From the NCBI GenBank assembly GCA_009733575.1, contig ML769591.1, positions 59,894 through 123,893 of the forward strand: DNA of 64,000 nt, in the 5' to 3' direction. A model generated the notes under the pieces. It was not told the DNA's origin, did not search any database, and saw only the letters and a list, made by a program, of their open reading frames with translations. The position numbers and the translations under genes were made by a program. This document shows positions 795 to 50,310 of the stretch, one piece after another (the first letter of the stretch is position 1; every line of letters starts with the position of its first letter). Source of the DNA: Gymnopus androsaceus JB14 (Eukaryota; Basidiomycota; Agaricomycetes; Agaricales; Omphalotaceae).

Positions 795-2652
795 ACACTT
801 GGTAAGAGGTAAGCTTTATTTGTGAATATTCGACGTACGAATATCGAGGAGGAGGCGTCCTTCAGGTTGTTAAGAAAACATCATCAGCAAGCTCGAAGTC
901 TCCGCTGAGTCTACCCACCATGTGTTACTGCTAGGAATCGGCATAGTTGTGAGACGGATAAGCAAGACGCAAACACGCGCGAGCGGCGCCACTGAAGCTA
1001 TAAACGTATCATGTGATGTATCTTTCGCTAGCGCTTGCGCTTTCAATTCAAGGAATCACGAATAAACCGAAGAACGAACGTCGTTGGCCGACTGGATTGG
1101 TGTTATATTTCACTAAATTGTTTCAACCGCCACAGATTCTCAGATCCTCAAACTTGAGCTAGTCTATTTTTCCGCACCGATGTTGTACCGAATGGAATTG
1201 TGTCATCCTCCGAGTCTCGGTAGTCGCAAAGAAGTCTCACGGAACCGAGTCTCGAGAGTCTTCCTAGGGGAGAACACAACATGGATTCCCATCGTTGCTA
1301 CATATTCTACAGTTAACTTCTCTTGAAGCAACACTAGAACGACTTCTTTTCACATAGTGTCCGAACCCACTTGAGAATGGAATGAAAAAACTGTAATGTT
1401 GATTGGGAAGGAAGGAAGGAAGGGTGTGGAGTTCAGGAAGAAGAATACGCCGAGGTACGTTCCGATTGTATTCCATCCTCGATATGGCTAATAGCTTTCG
1501 GTCTTCAACAGTCTTAACCCTATATAGGAAGACAAAGAAACTCAAAGCTAACTCAAAGCTAGGAGCTTGGGAAGGACGGCAGCTGTACTTGCCGTCGATC
1601 CCAGCGGCAAAGTTGCAAGGAAAGTTGAATCCACAACAAACTCTTGTGGTAAATCATTGTGAGTTAGGAAGAGGGAGACATCAAGGTACTAGTCTCGGAG
1701 CCTCCTAGTCCAAGTTGATTTCGGTTTTGGAGCAAGGAACGAGAAGCTAGGAACCACCCCCTCTACCGACGTCGATCTCAGTAACAGAACTCTAAAATCC
1801 AACCTTGGTCGTCACATCCGATTCCTTATTATCAAACTTCAGGCTCACGGCGTTCAATATCCGACGATGTGTCGGTCCTTTCATTCAAAAACTTTCATGT
1901 TTGAACACATGGTTACTACGTAGTACCACTGGGGAAAACATGATGATTTCCTGCTCGTTCAATTGGAATCTTCGCGAGCATGAGGTCCAAGAGCTTGAAT
2001 ATTGAATACACCGCAAGAACTTCCTGGGACTTCGTACCTCCGGTCTACTGTATCATCTCACTGCAGATAAAGGCATGTGTTCGTAGACACGGGAGCACGA
2101 TGGGTTTAATCCGGAGTAGTTGGCGGTGGCTGCGTTACCGTTTCATGTAACTTACACATCCTTACACATCCCGTTTGAATCCAGCTATGATAACTGATCT
2201 TTAATTCAAGCATGACAGTTACCTGAGCCTGGTTTCGAGAGCTGGGTTCGGCATCGCCGCATCTACATCGGTATTGCCTCCAAGTCGTGTTTGACCGTGG
2301 TAGCAAGATGGTGGTAGCATGATACGACGCCCAGTGCGTAGGTCCGGCAACTGATATGAACGATACGTAGAGGCGCGCGTACTTATCTCTGTTCAGGTGT
2401 CTCATGGCCTAGTTCTTTTCCCCATGAACTGGATGGGTGGATCTGATCCTTTCCGTCATACTTGCAAGAAACCATAAATATCTTCTCAACTGCTGCAAGT
2501 TAAATTTCGGGATGACCACATATCTCACGGTGCCGCATTTATCTTATAACACCGAACTGATACTACTTATACTTTAACTATCACAGGACGAATTCAATCT
2601 ATCTGTCTCAACCATTTTCCCCCCTCTCCCTCGCACGCATACACTCCCCGCC
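795..2652. other. Gene-free stretch
   Basis: I find no reading frame with recognisable domain content or convincing splice structure here. The open frames at 1264-1545, 1403-1708 and 2106-2405 are low-complexity or lack any familiar motif. A ggaa microsatellite-like run occurs near 1411-1422. Confidence 0.5.
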
Positions 2653-3212
2653 ATGAAGTACCTATCCGGTGCTGCTGCTCTCCTAGTTTTATTGCTTTCG
2701 ATTGCGGGTGGACTAGCTGCGCCTGTTGCTATTATTCCTGCCCTTCTTCCTCTTACGGAAGCGTGAGTAGCAGCGTCGATTCATCAGAATCTCAAAACTC
2801 AAAATTTTTGGTTCAAACTTTTAGTGAGCGTGCTATCGGAGGACGAGGCGATCCTGAAAGCTCAAACTGGCCTCCTTCTTGGCGCCGAGCTTCTGAGGAT
2901 AAGGTCCTTCGCGGAGATCCAGAAAGCTCAAACTGGCCCCCCTCGTGGAAACGTACTGAAGTTCTGGGACGTGGTGATCCAGAAAGTTCAAACTGGCCCC
3001 CCTCATGGAAACGTGCGGTTCTTGAACGTGGCGATCCAGAAAGCTCAAACTGGCCCCCTTCATGGAAACGTACGGTTCTTGAACGTGGCGATCCAGAAAG
3101 CTCGAACTGGCCTCCTTCATGGTTGAAATTGCCGAGTGATACGACGGGAGCGGCGGGAGAAAGACGCGGAGATCCGGAGAGTTCGAATTGGCCTCCTTCT
3201 TGGAAGGCATAA
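2653..3212 (+). CDS. Secreted Kex2-type repeat peptide precursor (six GDPESSNWPPSW units)
   Basis: Exon 1 is 2653-2762, a 62 nt GT-AG intron follows (2763-2824), and exon 2 is 2825-3212, giving about 165 residues. Residues 1-22 are a typical signal peptide (MKYLSGAAALLVLLLSIAGG), with likely cleavage near LAA-PV. The rest is six copies of the 12-mer GDPESSNWPPSW at 2847-2882 and onward to 3168-3203, joined by short spacers (ASEDKVLR, TEVLGR, AVLER, TVLER). Four copies are followed by KR or RR, the classic Kex2 cleavage signal; every copy is preceded by Arg. The fifth is followed by LK and the last by KA then stop. All six cores are identical in protein while DNA differs silently. The architecture matches Kex2-processed repeat proteins: ascomycete alpha-factor precursors, dikaritin RiPP precursors and Ustilago Rep1. 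The core resembles none of them, and it has no Cys or Tyr. Product and role are unknown. Confidence 0.85.
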
Positions 3213-3930
3213 GATGATATCATGTTGATGGATGGATGGTATGTCGATAGCACTGATTTTTTGCGACATACACTGATTTTTGTTGATGATCAGACTTGCA
3301 TCCTTTGGGTTTGACTGATGCTGACTGATGCGGACAGTAAGGAAACTATTACCTACTATCGAGAGTTATTTGTTTCTATGCACTTTCTCGCTATCCTAAT
3401 AACCAGTGTCAAAAGCCGGGGATCGCGTTTGAGCAAATTAATATTCAAGTGCTGACGATAGTGACAACCATTATGCAAAAAAATGAATAAAGAAATTTAT
3501 TCATTTATTCCGAGTAAAATGCAAGCTAGTACAAGAACATCAAAAAAATCATACATATAGGGTTAGATATAGTAAGGACGTAAATGGTCATCTGGTTAGA
3601 ACAAGTACATGTAGCACAAGATATCAACGGCTCGCCAAGGCCCAATACAATGGCTTTCCGAGCAAGTTCGGGGAAGCGTTGGGAAGTGCTCACGGAGAAG
3701 TTGTAAGCGGGAACGACGGTCAAATTGGCTAGATTGTCTAAAGTTCACGGAGGCATTGAGAGAGTAGAAACGATGGTGGAGACATGGTATTCTGACCACT
3801 GCAGCTCACTGCAGACGTTGGGAATGTTGCGGTCAGACCACCGGACATTCGGAACGATGTTGTTCGGGCCACTGGAGATGTCTGGGACGATGCTGGTTAG
3901 ACTACCAGAGACGTCGGCGATAGGAACAGT
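3213..3930. other. Gene-free stretch
   Basis: This is the 3' flank of the peptide-precursor gene plus AT-rich DNA. It holds repeated actgattttt words at about 3252-3290 that recur at about 8670-8710. From about 3840 it grades into degenerate copies of the minisatellite unit (ccactggagatgtctggg, ctaccagagacgtcggcg). No supported gene. Confidence 0.5.
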
Positions 3931-4170
3931 CAGACCACTAAAGACGACGGAATGGTGTTGTTCAGAACGCAGAGACGTTGGGAGCGAGAGTTTACTCAAA
4001 CCACGCGTTCAGCCACTAAAGACGACGGGAATGGTGTTGTTCAGACCGCCAGAGACGTTGGGAGCGAGAGTTTACTCAAACCACCGCGTTCAGCCACTAA
4101 AGACGACGGGAATGGTGTTGTTCAGACCGCCAGAGACGTGGGAGCGAGAGTTTACTCAAACCACCGCGTT
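3931..4170 (+). repeat. Minisatellite, three tandem units of about 80 bp
   Basis: The units are 3931-4009 (79 bp), 4010-4090 (81 bp) and 4091-4170 (80 bp). Each carries the words ccactaaagacgacgg, aatggtgttgttcaga, agagacgt(t)gggagcgagag and tttactcaaaccaccgcgtt. Units 2 and 3 are almost identical, unit 1 differs at several sites, and more degenerate shorter units precede it. The lengths are not all multiples of three, so the long open frames across it are probably not coding. Confidence 0.85.
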
Positions 4171-4274
4171 CAGGGCTCTCCGGTAGAAGCTGAAAGATGA
4201 TAAAATGAGATTTTGGTTAGACAAGTTCAGCGGAGGACTGAGACAAGCCTGAGGGCGATGGTACATCGATATAT

Positions 4275-16371: not shown

Positions 16372-19264
16372 ATGGCCGACGTTGATATGGATAATGGAGA
16401 CAGCTTGAAGAGAAAGAGGTACGTCCAACTCTCAAAATTTTATCCTTTTTAACCTCTGAAATCTCCGTTATTTTAGATCTGCTTCCACTTCGTCAGTAGA
16501 CGCAAATCTGCCCCCTTCCAGCCGTCGCCGGTCAATATCTCCCAGAAGTTCTAGAATCGACAGTGTCAAAGTCAGCGATGTTGACCCTGCTCGCCGTGCT
16601 GAGCGAGAACGACAGCTCACTGCACGTGTCGCTGCAATGGAACTCGAAAAGTCTGAGAATCCAAAGGAAAAGGCTGCGGAAAAGGAACTCGATTCACAAG
16701 CAGAGTTTGCAAAGCTTTTGAGCACACGATCCGGTGGGGTATATATGCCTCCTGCTCGTCTACGTGCATTACGGGAAGCCGCATCCAACGACAAAACTAG
16801 TTCGGAATACCAACGACTGTCTTGGGACGCTCTCAGAAAGTCCATCACTGGTATCGTCAACAGGGTCAACGTCAACAATATCAAACTTATTGTTCCGGAG
16901 CTCTTCTCTGAAAATTTGATTCGAGGCCGCGGTTTATTCGCCAGGAGCATCATGAAAGCACAGGCATCGAGTTTACCGTTCACTCCGGTTTTCGCTGCGC
17001 TCGTCGCCATCATCAACTCCAAGCTTCCTCAAGTTGGAGAGCTCGTCTTGACTCGGCTCATCAGTCAATTCCGGCGGTCGTTCAAACGGAATGACAAGGC
17101 ATGTTTCGTGTTTCTGACTTTATCCTTTTTAAACTTACCAGTCCCGTATTAGATCGTCTGCCATTCTACCACCACATTCATTGCGCACCTAGTTAACCAG
17201 GCAGTTGCCCATGAAATCATCGCCCTCCAAATTCTCGTTCTTCTCCTCGAACGCCCCACTGATGATTCCATCGAAATTGCCGTCGGTTTCATGCGCGAAG
17301 TAGGAGCTTTCCTCGCTGAAAACTCTCCTAAAGCAAATGCTACTGTCTATGAGCGATTTCGCGCTGTCCTGAATGAAGGCACTATCAGTCATCGGGTTCA
17401 GTACATGATCGAAGTCCTCATGCAGGTCCGGAAGGACAAGTATAAAGACAATCCCATTCTTCCCGAGGGTCTTGATTTGGTGGAGGAGGATGAGCAAATC
17501 ACTCATCAAATACAGCTCGAGGAGGAGCTACAAGTCCAGGAGGGACTGAGTATGTTGCTTCTTTGCATTTCCGGTTTATCTGCGTAGCTGACATACCCTT
17601 TTAGATATATTTAAATTCGATCCAAACTATATTGAGAGCGAGGAAAAGTACAAATCTATCAAAAACGAGATTCTGGGAGAGGATTCGGATGAAGAATCTG
17701 GTTCGGAAGAGTCGAGTGATGAGGATGAGGAAGAAGGTACGCATAGTCGCTCTTTCATTTCATCATCCGCGCTGACAGAAACTATAGTAGTTGAAGCCAA
17801 GGAAGGAATCGAAGACCAAACCGGAACCAATTTGGTAAACCTCCGTCGAACCATTTACTTGACCATCATGAATGCTCTCAACTATGAAGAGGCGGTTCAC
17901 AAGCTTCTCAAGGTGCAAATCTCAGAGGGCGAAGAAGTGTGTATCTGTTTTTTTTTCGCATGGCATGTATGATTTTAACGTTTCTTTACAGATTGAAATG
18001 GTCAACATGATCATTGAGTGTTGCTCACAAGAACGCTCATACTCCACATTCTACGGTCTCATCGGCGAACGCTTCAGCAAACTCAACCGTGTCTGGACAG
18101 AGTCTTTCGAAGCCGCATTTGGCAACTATTACAGCACTATTCATCGTTATGAAACCAATCGCTTACGAAACATTGCAAGATTTTTCGGACATCTATTTGC
18201 GACGGACTCGATATCGTGGGTTGTGTTTGAGTGTATCAAAATTAACGAGGATGATACGACTTCGAGTAGTCGTATTTTCGTAAAGATTATGATGAATGAG
18301 ATGATGGAGAGTATGGGGTTGAAGACGTTGGCGGAGAGGTTTAAGGATGCGGAGGTCAAGAGGGCTTGTGAAGGCATGTTCCCTGTTGATGTGCCCAAGA
18401 ACACTCGGTTCTCCATCAACTATTTCACGAGTATTGGTTTGGGTGTGGTCACGGAAGAGATGCGAGAGTATCTCAAGGTGAACTTTTATATTTTTCTTTA
18501 CGTTCTTGTCCAGTCATTCATTTTCCCTTCCTTAGAATGCTCCAAAATTGATTATGGAACAACGCCGAAAAATGCTCGAGCAAGAGTCGTCGTCAGATTC
18601 GGACTCGAGCTCGGATTCAGATTCCTCAGACTCAGACTCCGACTCGGATTCTGACAGTGATTCTGAATCTGTAGAATCTAGGCGGAGTGCACCTCGCCGA
18701 AGGCGTACCCCATCTCCTCCTCCTCCCCGTCGTCGACGGTCCCCATCGTATGGCTCAGACCGTGGACCACCACCCAGAGGGCGCAGCTTATCTCGCACCC
18801 CTCCGCCGCCTCGCAGTCGTCGACGTGATGATACTCCTCCACGCGATGACAGAAAACGTGATTCCTTTGGTCGCGCTCCCCCTCCCCATATTCCCGAGAA
18901 AGGTCGTTACAACGGCAGGGCCGACTCCCCTCCCCCGCGTCGACGCTACCCATCATCATCCTCCTCGAGATCCAGGTCGCCTCCTCCCCCAAAGTCAAAA
19001 TATCCTCGAGATAGGTCTGATTCTCGGTCAAGATCTCCTCCGCCTCCGCCTCGTCATCCCAACACCAATGCCAATGGGCGGAGACATGATTCTCGATCTA
19101 GGTCTAGGTCTCCACGGAGGGATGAACGCAATGATCGAAAACGGAGAGATGATTCGAGAGATCGGGGCTACTACCGCAACGACAGACAGCGCCAGTCGCC
19201 TCCGCATTCATCAAGGCGCGATATGGAGCGTGAGCGCGATCGGGACTATGAGCGTAGGAGGTAG
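16372..19264 (+). CDS. CWC22: Pre-mRNA splicing factor CWC22
   Basis: Seven exons: 16372-16418, 16477-17098, 17153-17549, 17605-17736, 17788-17936, 17992-18477 and 18536-19264. The MIF4G domain runs from about GGVYMPPARLRALREA through SWDALRKSITGIVNRVN and ENLIRGRGLFARSIMKAQA to HEIIALQILVLLLERPTDDS; the MA3 domain includes NLRRTIYLTIMNALNYEEAV and SYSTFYGLIGERF. CWC22 is a spliceosome component that binds eIF4A3 and enables exon-junction-complex loading. After the MA3 domain comes an acidic Asp-Ser run (from 18590) and then a Pro/Arg/Ser tail with many RS and RSPPPP motifs, ending DYERRR; this RS tail is typical of fungal and animal CWC22. Intron 17099-17152 appears to be GC-AG. No frame breaks. 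Confidence 0.93.
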
Positions 19265-41606: not shown

Positions 41607-44590
41607 CTAAAAGATACGGTCTTGATTTGTCTGCGAAAGCAAGTCGTCAACCAAAGTCATGAAAGAATCCCAGTCTTCTTGACTATTTCCAGAAGTGAGT
41701 GATATGTTGGCAGAAAAGGTGGTAACATACTCGTAGTCTGATAGTCCTGCGTTGCCTACCTTGTCGCCCGATGACAGTCCCATATAGGGACCTTTAAAAG
41801 GTCTGATTGAAGGCGATGTAATTGGAGGTATTTCAAAGGAAAGCTCAGAAGGCATGGCGAATGGCGCTGAATTCCTATTATCAGAAGGCGAGGATTCCTG
41901 TAGTTCGTCGTCTCTGGTACGCTTCAAGAGATTTTGTCGAGAAAGCGACGGGATTCGACCAACAGACATAATTGATTGGAGTACATCTCTACAGAAACGC
42001 ATCAATCTGGTTTTGAATCTCAGATAAATGGTGAGGAGTCCTCACCGAAGACGGCCGGGGTTTTCAAACCTGGAGAAGGAGTCAGAAAAATCATCATCTA
42101 CATCGTATAGCCATTGAATACCTTTTCTCGTACAAGCTCATGACGTTCATGCATGCATGGACCTGAGCTAAATCATTTCCAGGGTCCAAAGCAGAATTCA
42201 TCCATGTTTGTTTCCAGATATTAGTAAGGAGTAATACGGCGCTCAGAAAGGCTACGGGCTATGACAAAGTCAGGCAATGGGCTAAGAATGAATGGGATTA
42301 GGCTTACTATCATCCGTGGAATCATGATGAAGTCCGGGCGCTGATGATATACCAAGAGAATGTGAATGAAATTCCGCGCCGAATTCGTACAAATGGCCAG
42401 AGAAGAAAAGCTCAGTGAAGATACTGGTCCTGGGCGAACCCAGCGGGCATGAAATCGCATTTGAAAGAACAGCAGCCATGTTTGCAGCATCGCCGACTGT
42501 CGAAAAAAAACTGTATTCGGGTTGTGCGGATCCCAACGTACTGAAAAAAAGCCATCAGGCAAAAGGAATATGAAAGATTGATTTTACTTACAGTGTCCAG
42601 GCATAGAATCTATCCATTCATTAGTTGCCACACTCGTTGTCATAAAAAGTTTCTCAAGAAGTTCCGGTGAGGACTCGGCCAAACCTGAAAGTTCCGGCCT
42701 TTGTATAGAAGGCTACAGAGAATGACTAGATGCTTCAAGAGTAAGGTCAAGAGGGGCGCACAATATAAATCCTAGTTCGACCAGCAATCTGCTGAAGCCG
42801 AAGGAAATGATTCCAGTAAGCAACATAAGATGCTTGTCCAGGTGGTTGCATGAAGGAAAGTCCAATGTCGGACTCAATCCAGTATTCATCATCACATTCT
42901 ATAGGAAGATCTAGATCATAGCTGTAGGATTAAGAATAAAGCTGAGTCTAGCTGTAAGATGCTGTGAAAATGAAGTTACAAACTCATCCTCAGTGGTCAC
43001 TCTGGGTCGACCCGTAACTCCAATTTTGAAACCATCCAAAGCGACCAGGACCCAGTATGCACGCTTCCACAGTTCTTGTTCAACCCTCTCTTGATGAGTT
43101 TTCCCTGGCGGTTGTTTTCTGTGTGCCCCAACCTCCCGTGCAAACATTATACCCATGCCAATAAGGGAGGAGCTCATGTCACTGAGAGGAGTCGGTTTTA
43201 GGAACAAGGAAGAAAGCTAAGATTCAAAAAATCAGCATCTACAAGGAAGTATTCAATAGTTCTAGGTACCGACCACATAGAGTTGGATTTCAAACAAAGA
43301 TACAGGTTGGATAAGTTTATTTCTAACTAGGCGAATCTGCTGGAAGTATTTCCACCCCGCAGAGCGTTCTGACTGACTTCCATCGTGCAGAGTGCGAGGA
43401 TCTCTGCAGTGCTGCGATCCTAAGGAACAAACTGCTAGGAGAGTTGCAGCAAACATCGGATTGCTTCGATGCAGTTTCTCCTCGAACACTTGTTGCTTGA
43501 ATATTGGACCATTAAGAAGAGGAAATAATATGTTTATGTTGGAGAAAAATAGAGAAACGAGCTGTTGCATAAGGTCACCTGAGGAATAGTTCAGTAATTA
43601 TTGTCTGTGGTGGAGGAAAGCATGCACCTTCAGGGAAAACGTATTCTGGGTCTTCGGGCTCATAGACCTTATGCCACTGCGAAAACGTGATTAACCAGAG
43701 GCGGAGAAGATACTTCAGCCACCAACTCACAGGAGACCGGGTCCAAAATTCCGTTCTTTGTTGCTGACTGGACATAACACGACTTTCGGACCCATTCAAC
43801 TCGTCCCCAATGTTGAGCGCAGTTCGTAAGAGCGTTTGACTTGCGTGAGTGGCATTTTGTCGACAAAAGCTCCCTACACCAATATCTTCGATACGACTTG
43901 GAAGGGCGTCCACCACATCAGCACTCTCATCTTCTTCAGCATCATTGGATCCTTGGTTTGATTCCAGGGTAGTACTACTAGATGGAACTGGAATTGAGGA
44001 ATGGCAAGTGGGCACTGCCGAAGGAAGAAGCTGGTTTAGTTTAGTTTCGAGGGTGCGCACATACTTTGAAATGTCAACTAGCATGTTTCTGATAGCTTGA
44101 AAATCTTCCGGAATTGGAAAACTCAGAGGAGCAGCAAGGATTTTGTAGACGAGCGTTTTGGCGTCGGGAGGCTGCTTTTGCTTAGAACTGGATATAATCG
44201 ATAAGCAAGCAATAATTGGGGCCTCTCGACTGACCCTGCTTTAGGTCCGCGTTTCTGCAGCACGAAGTAAGAATTAGATATTGCACGGCATGTAATCCAC
44301 TAGTATCACGTACTTGATTCTGCAGTAAATGTTTACACTCAACCTTCGAGGCCAAACAATTCGAGCATACACCGTCTGGCATTGCATCACTATCACCTGT
44401 ATACACTCTAATTAGATGCTGCAAAGCAGCCTGTGGACTGACTCTCACATTTAACTGTCGTAGAATCATTAGTACTACTTAATCATTGGTTTCATCAGGC
44501 AGTATTACCTTTCTTACGATGACATTCATCGCAAGCCTTAGAGGCTCTTCGCTTCGCAAGTGGAGCGCCCCGACCTTTATCTTCTGGCAT
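41607..44590 (-). CDS. Zn2Cys6 transcription factor, copy A
   Basis: ATG at 44590. The first exon ends KRRASKACDECHRKK; after introns the cluster continues VKC-DSDAMPDGVCSNCLASK-VEC, giving a C-x2-C-x6-C-x9-C-x2-C-x6-C zinc binuclear cluster. A leucine-rich linker follows (MLVDISKYVRTLETKLNQLL), an acidic Ser-rich segment, then the fungal-specific transcription factor domain: WHKVYEPEDPEYVFPE, LMQQLVSLFFSNINILFPLL, PMFAATLLAVCSLGS, SSSLIGMGIMFAREVGAHRK, QELWKRAYWVLVALDGFKIG. The C-terminus is Ser-rich and ends LLSQTNQDRIF (stop 41607-41609). It is a nuclear DNA-binding regulator, usually of catabolic or secondary metabolism. Its convergent position suggests, but does not prove, control of the dehalogenase. 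This is the only one of three copies whose ATG is in frame with the zinc cluster. Confidence 0.85.
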
Positions 44591-45960
44591 GCTTGTTCAA
44601 CGTTGCTGCGGAGAGAAACGAGAGAGAAAAGAACTTTGGCGCCTAACAGATAAACTGGCGTCTATTTACTGTAAGCGCTTTCCGCCGTCGATCGGCGATC
44701 GAATCATGATTCATCGTTCCATCCTCGGTGTCGAAGCTGAAACAACATTCCCGTTCATGTCACTGGCAATCCGTCCCTCTTATTACCCATGATTCTCGAC
44801 CCTGCGTCTACATAGGGACGCTTATTCCCGTTTCGTACCCAGCTGTACAGGGATGCAGCGCAAAATCAAAACACTTTGGTGTGACACGACTACGTCTGCA
44901 TCTGGGTCTTTCGAAATTGCCTCTCACGAACAGGAACGGTCGAAATCCGTACTATCATTTGACCGACTTGCTGCCTTGGCCGCAGCAGCAGCAGCAGCTA
45001 CCAATTGAAGTTTCTGTTTCGTGCCATCTTGAATTCTACCGCTGGATGTGCTATTGGGACTTCAGAGAATTAGAAATCAGGAAGATGATAATCTGTATAC
45101 CTCAACTTCCAATTTCAAGTTCTCTCAACAGGTATACTCAAATGAGTCTGCATCTGACAATCCATTCTACGCAGCTATGAAAATTCTGCATCCAAACCAT
45201 ATTATCCAGAGTTATGGATGAACTTGACTGTTTAAAAATGCTTACTTTGTAACTTGTACTTTACTTGCTCCGACTTGAGACCGCGGTATATCGCTTCCGA
45301 TCGAATGGATTATGTCGGTACTACTGTAGTAATGGAAGATCTCCGGCAAGTAGTGTTTTGCAATGCCTAGGGTACTTAACCGGGTTTACGATATCTGCTA
45401 GGTATTGTCAGCCTGTTTGGTACCGAGGAATCTCTGCCTCTTGTGTTATATTCTTTAGCTTTGTTCGCAGGCGTCCGAGCAACTCGCGAGCAAAGGCTGC
45501 GACTAATCATTGACTTATCATTGAATCTCCAAGTTTTCAGCGTCACTGCTACTAAGTACACTAGCTTCAGTAGTCAATAAGATGTAAGCAGTAATCCATA
45601 TACTTCCATGGTATCTGACCGCCCGGGTTAAATAGTATCTCGCAATTTATACTGCGCATTACATCCCAGTCAAGATCCATGGCATCATGACGCTCATTCA
45701 AAGTGGCAGACCCGCCCCCTCTAAGTTCATCTATTGCATCACAAACCCTCACAGGCAGAGGCTTGGTTATTTCTTGCTGACAATTGAATGAAGAGAATGA
45801 TCTAGTTCGCCTGAGCCGTGTATGTTGTTTTTTCTGGGAGCAACATTCTGCAATGTGATAGTGGGGTTGACTCGGTTGGCTCGAGCAATCAAGGATGCCA
45901 GATTTAAGAGGTGCAAGGGAGCTCTGCCTTGGTTTGTCCTCTTCTATGAATTATATTTTG
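44591..45960. other. Gene-free stretch
   Basis: The first 100 bp are the duplicated 5' flank shared with the other two regulator copies (ggcgtctatttactg at about 44648, 54107 and 57551). A gcagcagcagcagcagc run lies near 44981-44997. I see no supported gene. Confidence 0.5.
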
Positions 45961-48163: not shown

Positions 48164-50310
48164 GGATGGAGGTAAGAGCAAAGGTGCTGAAAAGCATCAA
48201 CGAAGGACAAGCTGGCACAGCCCGTATGAATATCCACGTTTCAGAGCCGATTCAATACAACTCCTTCAGTCCGATCGGAGATAACTCAGGTAAGGCCAAC
48301 TTCCAAGGAAAAAGGAAAGGCGTGTAGTCCGTTTACCATAGCCTAACTGGTGCAATGCTCATCGGAAACCAGACTAATTAGCCTTAGGTGACTCGGGTGC
48401 ACCATGCTACGTGCGAGCGACACAACCAATAGAACAAGGATAGTATTGAGTCAAAGTCAAAGACACCAAACACGAAAACGGAGCGTTAATGAACCCGGAA
48501 ATGAACTGGACAGGATAGGGAGAGGGAGGAAGAACGACCAACGGACGAAGAATACGAGCACAAAAACAGGAAAAAGATCTAGCATCACAGCTCCCGTTTT
48601 CGCTTGCCTCGTTTCTGTTTCCATTCAAGTGGAAGAAGGGGCACTAATACCGCGAGATGTGGAAGGAATGTAGACGATGCAAAAGGAGGTCAATCATTGA
48701 TTCAGGTCCTTCTTCTGCCTCATCTCCATAATTAATCAAATAATACGGCGAGGGATTCATCTGTCCATGTCCCGCTCAGCAGCTATCGCATTACGCACCC
48801 ATGTACTTAGCTGCTGCAGCGATCGCTCCAAACGTCACTTTTGCGATGTCAGGATGGCGGTAAAACTGACGAGGGGAGGAATAGACGGAGTTGGAGAAAG
48901 GGTCTATGGATAGGTGTTATGCGAACGTGAAGAGAGAAGAGCGTAGTACTCGAGCAACAATTCGATTGATAAGATCGCTGCCGTGGAGAACGACGACGAC
49001 GATGTTAGAGTCTTCAGAGGCACAGAGAGAGAGAGAGAGTAAAAAATGCTACAACACTGAGACTCGGTCGAGTAAAACGGCCCAGAGTGCCCAAGGTACA
49101 CCGTTACAACGGAGGCATAAGCGGCCATTTACGCCGAATCCAGATCCAAGAGAAGGGACATCGGACATCAGTATTGGTGGTACCAAGTATGCGTAGAGTA
49201 CGTAGTGTACCGATTGTCGAGGTGGAGTATGATGCGCGACAGAAAGGATTCTGTTTAGGCCAATATCAACGTCGCACCATCCGACGAGCTCCACACACCA
49301 ACAAGTTACGTCCAACCAACAGAACCTGGTGAGTTTTGGTTCACTGGTATCGGCAATGACTCTAGTAGCCCTACCCACAATGCTATTTCAAACCGCTTTC
49401 TCGTCGTGGAGGCGGGAAGAGACAAGACTCCGGGTATTCCACAGAAGATGGGTGTTGGACGAGAAAATGGATATGGTCTGTCGCGATGGAGTCGATGGGG
49501 CGTAAATGAGTTCCTAGAGTACGAAGAGGAGATTTCGTGGGATGTTGAAGATCGATATGGTGGAAAAGCCGGAGGAGAGGGATATCTGGTACACAAGAAC
49601 GATTAGAACAGCGAAAATAAAGGAAAATTGAACACGACTTACTCGGCTCTCACTTCCACTTCCTGTTACTTCTCCCGCTTCCATCTACCTTGTGAGCATC
49701 GTCTTCCTGAGCACGATTGCAATGACAGTCAGAGAACGAGCTGAACCTCCTGCGTGCCTATCCAACCCACCACTCCAACCCACAACTCCTTCAACGACCC
49801 CATCCCTCTCAATCAGCTTGGTCCGTTGACGAAAATCTTGACCTATCGGCATTAGCCCATCCAAACACCACTGCAAGGAGGGTCTGGTACGGCCGATTGT
49901 TCAACGCGTAAATCAAGAACCGAGTCGAGAGGATCATGGCGCGATGAGCCCTTTCAGCAAACTATTTTCGATTTTGCTTTCTTCCGTGGTCATGAGCGTA
50001 AGACTCGTCCGACTCGAGGTGGTGTTCTAGGTGACGTCCGAATCAGATATTTATACCCCACCAAACGTCGATGCCAAAGACCGCGACGATTACACTACAA
50101 CTCATGACATCGGATGGGGCAATATACAGTGTGCTCGAGTACCGGAGGTCAAAGCACTATTGGGATGAAAATCGGGAAACTGGGAAAATGTCTGGTTACA
50201 TGGACGATTAGAAAAACGAATAATATAAAAAGCTTGAAAAACTCACAGAAATTCTTATCTCCCGTAGGCAGACTCTCGCAAGCAAGCTTGCTATATACAG
50301 AAACTCACAT
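48164..50310. other. Long gene-free stretch
   Basis: No frame here shows a motif I recognise on either strand. There is a gagagagagagagagag microsatellite at about 49025-49040. The plus-strand open frames 48404-48673, 48891-49196 and 49406-49606 are basic and low-complexity; they could be exons of an unknown gene or decayed DNA. The right end abuts the truncated dehalogenase copy. Confidence 0.45.

Follow-up and report, generated by a model that had tools for sequence, protein, structure and literature searches.

A KEX2-processed repeat protein gene with a predicted Pro-x-Trp-ending peptide, and STE2-like receptor candidates, in the genome of the mushroom Gymnopus androsaceus

KEX2-processed repeat proteins (KEPs) are a defined class of fungal secreted precursors, surveyed in 2019 (PMC6339444) and 2020 (PMC7329392), and in 2022 a mass-spectrometry study showed their peptides in Coprinopsis, Lentinula and Pleurotus (PMC9769878). 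They are reported to be widespread in fungi and mostly of unknown function, and the class is described as being processed by signal peptidase, then Kex2 and then Kex1 (PMC9769878). Several of the described mushroom peptides end in Trp. Expression of Coprinopsis KEP 490115 in Pichia yielded QMRPPSW and QYKAPSW, Coprinopsis culture supernatant contains GPPAPSW and DDDPEGPPAPSW, and the Lentinula and Pleurotus peptides end in AADW; the mating pheromones of basidiomycetes are, by the same account, prenylated and of the a-type (PMC9769878). Here we analyse a 64,000-nucleotide stretch of the litter-decay mushroom Gymnopus androsaceus JB14 (contig ML769591.1, positions 59,894 to 123,893 of the forward strand; hereafter, the window), in which positions 2653 to 3212 encode a KEP whose repeated core is the 12-mer GDPESSNWPPSW. 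An earlier note made from the letters alone had seen a Kex2-type secreted repeat precursor of an agaricomycete here, which our analysis bears out, and had called it a kind it did not recognise, which is not the case, since KEPs were already described and cores ending in W or PSW appear in PMC9769878.

Six exact copies of GDPESSNWPPSW lie on the forward strand of the window: at 2847..2882 (Arg before, RR after), at 2913..2948, 2973..3008 and 3030..3065 (each with Arg before and KR after), at 3087..3122 (Arg before, LK after and no dibasic site) and at 3168..3203 (RR before, KA and the stop codon after). As the earlier note had read, Arg directly precedes all six cores and a dibasic site (RR, KR, KR, KR) directly follows 4/6. 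Variation among the copies is found in 9 of the 36 core columns, every one of them a third codon position (P 2.3e-6 for random column placement). This suggests that selection keeps the 12-mer peptide, and the synonymous-only pattern rules out a chance repeat. We thus found in one gene a signal peptide (judged by hydropathy and by eye), identical repeats, and KR/RR sites between the repeats, which are sequence features of a KEP. The residues following KR/RR are AS, TE, AV, TV or GD, with no XA/XP dipeptide of the Ste13 type, and the spacer before the core ends in V-L-R, V-L-G-R or V-L-E-R in 4/6 units. A C-terminal CaaX motif is the mark of the prenylated a-type mating pheromones of basidiomycetes; the precursor ends in ...PPSWKA, contains no Cys and has no CaaX, so that a usual basidiomycete mating pheromone was ruled out.

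The gene consists of two exons (2653-2762 and 2825-3212) whose spliced coding sequence gives a precursor of 165 residues. According to the spliced coding sequence and hydropathy, exon 1 (2653..2762, forward strand) carries the start codon and the signal peptide (MKYLSGAAALLVLLLSIAGGLA-AP...), whose hydrophobic stretch reaches a 15-residue Kyte-Doolittle maximum of 2.47; the call was made by eye and hydropathy. The intron (2763..2824, same strand; 62 nt, GTGAGT...TTTTAG, GT-AG, phase 2) follows soon after the signal peptide, and exon 2 (2825..3212, same strand) holds the repeat region including the stop codon. In the unspliced frame of exon 2 (2550-3212) we did not find any Met, and the intron is therefore needed for the coding sequence to begin with an ATG and a signal peptide, in agreement with the signal peptide and single intron proposed earlier. 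A Pfam scan of the precursor returned nothing at E<=0.1. The repeat gene is confirmed as real; taken together, the six cores, their flanks, the third-position-only variation and the Met-less unspliced frame make it very likely that this is a real coding gene under selection, and we have hardly any doubt that it is a genuine KEP gene.

Following the order known for the class, the precursor would enter the secretory pathway by means of its signal peptide, a Kex2-type protease would cleave after KR/RR, and a Kex1-type carboxypeptidase would remove the basic residues to leave a C-terminal Trp. The N-terminus of the core would be freed by cleavage after the preceding single Arg, a step that is less certain than the dibasic cuts. 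Vogt et al. suspected cleavage after a single Arg in three Coprinopsis KEPs and apparently saw such products (PMC9769878). These steps would release linear GDPESSNWPPSW in at most four clean copies; were the single Arg left uncut, dibasic cutting alone would yield versions with an N-terminal extension, such as AVLER-GDPESSNWPPSW. All 12 residues are the same in each of the six copies, an argument that the entire 12-mer may be the released product. In the genome, two loci match the Kex2 P-domain and one locus has DPPIV_N matches. We estimate the joint probability of KEP identity and a linear-peptide product at about 0.75, and a linear peptide with a WPPSW end is likewise probable. Its most likely role, which we consider about an even chance, would be that of an extracellular peptide signal sensed by the fungus itself or by its neighbours, and we prefer this to a cyclised ribosomally synthesised and post-translationally modified peptide (RiPP) or a structural repellent.

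Besides the window gene, the genome contains ten KEP-like loci of five types. The pattern PP-x-W-K-R/S gave 43 genome sites, compared with 9 for the reversed control, and 35/43 were located in KEP-like loci (26 on contig C246, 4 on C30, 3 on C209, which carries the window gene, and 2 on C68). These 35 sites span the window gene, four C246 loci, two C30 loci and one C68 fragment; among the 8 elsewhere, none of the seven examined belonged to an array (the eighth is on C391). A PPSW-RR/RK-type pattern was found at 22 sites versus 10 in the control, 8 in C246, 1 in the window and 13 elsewhere, and of these 13 the seven examined showed no array membership (0/7). A protein search of the genome added C112 (GPPDW) and C29 (GLPPDW, ten units), and the W-KR pair pattern (163 sites vs 61 for its control) added C5 (GVNEPTW, GVTEPTW) among the matches listed, which end on C246, so that KEP arrays on later contigs could be missing.

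The four C246 loci (44178-44708, 49271-49720, 67812-68279 and 72570-73154; L036, L037) have SAAPPSW/SPPDW cores. One of them is interrupted by a TGA, and one paralogue has Ste13-type XA/XP dipeptides after the Kex2 site. An arrangement of signal-peptide exon, short intron and repeat exon is common to the window gene, the C29 and C112 models and 3/4 C246 copies; for the C246 copy at 44 kb, scripted splicing gave no model, unlike the other three. At C29, two further PPDW units were noticed by eye in the DNA past the stop codon (L057 2553-2610), a possible sign of recent gain or loss of units.

Scanning the genome for three consecutive W-KR units, with no demand for PP[SD], gave 32 matches and none for the reversed pattern: 19 on C246, 7 on C29, 2 on C527, and one each on C5, C68, C142 and C717. 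Among the eight loci judged in frame by eye, seven (C5, C29, C68 and four in C246) end in P-[S/D/T]-W. They are three independent types only, because the C246 and C68 loci are close paralogues. The matches at C142 (a stop and a Ser codon) and C527 (Ser codons) were dropped as out of frame, also by eye. The window gene, with units that exceed the allowed gap, and C112, which uses RR, escape this pattern. A Pro before the penultimate residue of W-terminal fragments was found in the window gene (4/4), C246 (one copy, 13/13), C29 (10/10), C112 (5/5), C5 (4/4) and C30 (P0019, 1/2), and also in Pleurotus P0017 (4/7), P0015 (12/12 in the first 160 residues) and P0018 (4/4); this tally covers nine sequences, mostly retrieved by PPSW/PPDW-based queries. 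A search with one C246 KEP had returned five proteins at E<=1 among 7998 candidates scored, including P0018 (0.0092), an array of GGGNPPSWKREP, P0019 (0.1), P0015 and Pleurotus P0017. P0015 (376 residues) combines a TPDPPSWRR array with a long C-terminal stretch lacking a Pfam match, and may represent either a gene fusion or an annotation error. P0016 was left out of the KEP tally, as the residues after its PPSW units are RL instead of a dibasic pair. By its sequence, GDPESSNWPPSW is grouped with the agaricomycete KEP peptides predicted to have a free Pro-[Ser/Asp/Thr]-Trp end.

A different set of candidates came from the search of the genome with PF02116 (STE2), which gave 29.8 bits on C121 (cut-off 27.2; one stop read through) and, below the cut-off, 20.6 bits on C318 and 17.6 bits on C142. 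We list these as putative STE2-like seven-helix receptor genes at C121:25127-26180 (L065), C318:49352-50347 (L066) and C142:33560-34295 (L067). Once spliced, the C121 protein scored 17.7 bits against PF02116, and its family assignment by Pfam is therefore insecure; one splicing attempt on the C142 gene gave stops. With the C121 protein as query, a search of the genome again recovered these three loci at E<=0.001, seven first-look candidates having been scored. Among 8000 candidates scored, 13 further relatives of the C121 protein reached E<=0.001, the 12 named ones coming from nine other species, all of which we take to be agaricomycetes. In a PF02116 scan of ten of these relatives, 1/10 exceeded the cut-off and 5/10 had any match at E<=0.1; the Dendrothele relative P0009 reached 28.8 bits. 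Neither the spliced C121 protein (E<=1) nor the ten relatives (E<=0.1) matched DUF6534, which is the new agaricomycete receptor class of a 2025 survey (PMC12842992), and this identity was discarded.

Among solved chains, the only one that the sequence profiles matched at E<=1 was an 80-residue fragment of the alpha-factor receptor, and the longer PDB Ste2 chains were not among the matches listed by the sequence searches. For two predicted receptor models (mean pLDDT, the predicted local distance difference test, 79.6 and 70.3), a Ste2 entry ranked first by VIA-align Z, with a lead over the next other protein of 2.3 and 1.3, respectively, and in the second of these models Ste2 entries two and three tied with unrelated rows. 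With Foldseek, nothing reached E<=0.001; a class A receptor was best by E and Ste2 came second, with the highest TM-score among the 50 matches listed. Class I (Ste2) receptors are stated to be restricted to Ascomycota in the 2025 survey and in a 2026 review (PMC12842992, PMC13308352), and we noticed no Ste2 in Agaricomycetes at title or abstract level in literature searches. The survey is described as filtering by BLASTP (E < 1e-5 and 75% coverage) and then by hidden Markov model (E < 1e-5) (PMC12842992), and such filters could miss so distant a receptor family.

Several observations weigh against a KEP that releases a linear Pro-x-Trp peptide. No dibasic site follows the Trp of copies 5 and 6, single-Arg cleavage is not guaranteed, and the proposed identity and product are predictions from sequence. 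As to a homologue with a conserved core, which the earlier note had made a test of its proposal, neither the genome beyond the window gene nor the protein database yielded the core GDPESSNWPPSW; sequences with the same C-terminal WPPSW or PP[SD]W end were found, and no homologue of the whole gene was found at E<=1 among 4105 protein candidates (0.55-1.75x length, annotated genes only). The C717 array (17457-17515) is an in-frame W-KR triple without P-x-W (1/8 in-frame arrays). Furthermore, the C246, C68, C30, C112 and C29 loci were first found with queries holding PPSW or PPDW, and the shared Pro-x-Trp end is therefore partly produced by the search. No phenotype was reportedly detected in the six Coprinopsis KEP knockouts (PMC9769878), which makes it harder to argue for an essential signal. 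Finally, UstYa, on which the case against a modified product draws, is just one family of modifying enzymes.

That case concerns a dikaritin-like RiPP precursor, whose core would be cyclised or modified by UstYa-type or other enzymes. Signal peptide and Kex2-separated repeats are described as the dikaritin design too (PMC9769878), and a six-frame search that ignored introns gave 51 UstYa (PF11807) matches in the genome, which are exon pieces and not genes. However, 0/51 lie on C209 (123,893 bases), C246, C30, C29, C112 or C68, those on C5 are ~300 kb from the C5 KEP, and the core has no Tyr. UstYa was also found in none of the 20 window open reading frames scanned with Pfam (of 140 with >=100 residues), 7/20 of which matched other families: F-box-like (two, one below cut-off), metallo-beta-lactamase, WD40, MA3, fungal protein kinase and amidase. 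Just downstream of the KEP gene, at 3930-4173 of the window, an 80-bp tandem repeat is present in three copies. We consider modification of the core very unlikely, and the cyclisation site suggested in the earlier note is unsupported; its interpretation as a whole is partly supported. A structural or surface-active repeat peptide is likewise very unlikely: Ustilago Rep1 is indeed a Kex2-released secreted repeat precursor of a basidiomycete, but its peptides are described as 37 residues long (PMC6339444), whereas the window core is polar, acidic and of 12 residues. A defence or effector peptide aimed at competitors, plants or animals seems unlikely, though less so than these two; Vogt et al. 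prefer a role in biotic interactions, as their kep knockouts grew and fruited normally, yet synthetic KEP peptides inhibited 0/5 bacterial strains (PMC9769878), and nothing in the window locus hints at a target.

A more specific form of signalling would have Pro-x-Trp KEP peptides act as alpha-factor-like ligands of the STE2-like receptors of Agaricomycetes, as a non-mating self-signal, for example in hyphal communication or fruiting. It draws on the co-occurrence of both in one genome, on the alpha-factor-like precursor design, and on Le Marquer et al., who speculated on KEP-sensing receptors and asked which G-protein-coupled receptors (GPCRs) these might be (PMC6339444). Against it stand the PF02116 scores (17.7 vs 27.2 bits for spliced C121, one relative in ten over the cut-off), the absence of the longer Ste2 chains from the sequence-search listings, the Foldseek ranking of a class A receptor ahead of Ste2 with nothing at E<=0.001, and the ties of the second and third Ste2 entries in the second model; in addition, KEP and receptor genes sit on different contigs, and XA/XP dipeptides are absent after KR/RR in the window gene. 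We therefore regard this ligand role as a tentative suggestion, and it is doubtful that a Ste2-type (class D1) receptor family persists in Agaricomycetes with free Pro-x-Trp KEP peptides such as GDPESSNWPPSW as its ligands in a non-mating alpha-factor-like system. Even so, a single genome with both Pro-x-Trp KEPs and STE2-like receptors makes the question of KEP-sensing GPCRs directly testable, and should the receptors be genuine relatives of Ste2, the Ascomycota-only statement for class I receptors (PMC12842992, PMC13308352) would need revision.

Returning to the KEP itself and its predicted linear peptide, the comparison with described systems places it within a known design. Ustilago maydis Rep1 is likewise a Kex2-processed repeat protein of a basidiomycete, but its peptides are longer and govern properties of the hyphal wall (PMC6339444). 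Ascomycete alpha-pheromone precursors resemble the window gene as repeated, Kex2-released secreted peptides, and a C-terminal PCW is conserved in those of Fusarium and others (PMC6339444), whereas the window gene has neither Cys nor Ste13 dipeptides. In the same genome, the C112 KEP (L056) shares with it the signal-peptide exon, the early intron, and a G-started core that ends in PP[SD]W-[KR]R and stands right after a single Arg; its spacers end in V-x-R in 5/5 units, comparable to the V-L-R-type ends of 4/6 window units, but its core is the 5-residue GPPDW and its intron is in phase 0 instead of phase 2. Pleurotus eryngii P0017 (BDN71DRAFT_653019) has a GRWPPSW-KR unit with the same WPPSW end as the window core, as well as SPPDW, and differs in its mixed cores, in the EA/EP dipeptides after KR and in having no GDPESSN. 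Among described KEPs, Coprinopsis cinerea 490115 and 447393 have the same design and C-terminal PPSW/APSW as in the window peptide, and the 447393 12-mer DDDPEGPPAPSW has, as GDPESSNWPPSW does, DPE near its start and a PSW end (PMC9769878). Nevertheless, 490115 has Ste13 dipeptides, absent from the window gene, the core sequences differ, and the 447393 peptides are reported to come from a non-repetitive C-terminus, unlike the window repeats (PMC9769878). Five strings taken from the core or its flanks had no occurrence in open-licence literature text, although supplementary tables might list this or a near core. The repeat-precursor design was thus already known in mushrooms and the GDPESSNWPPSW peptide itself appears to be new, and it is well-founded to describe the window gene as a new KEP of established design, accompanied by a receptor lead.
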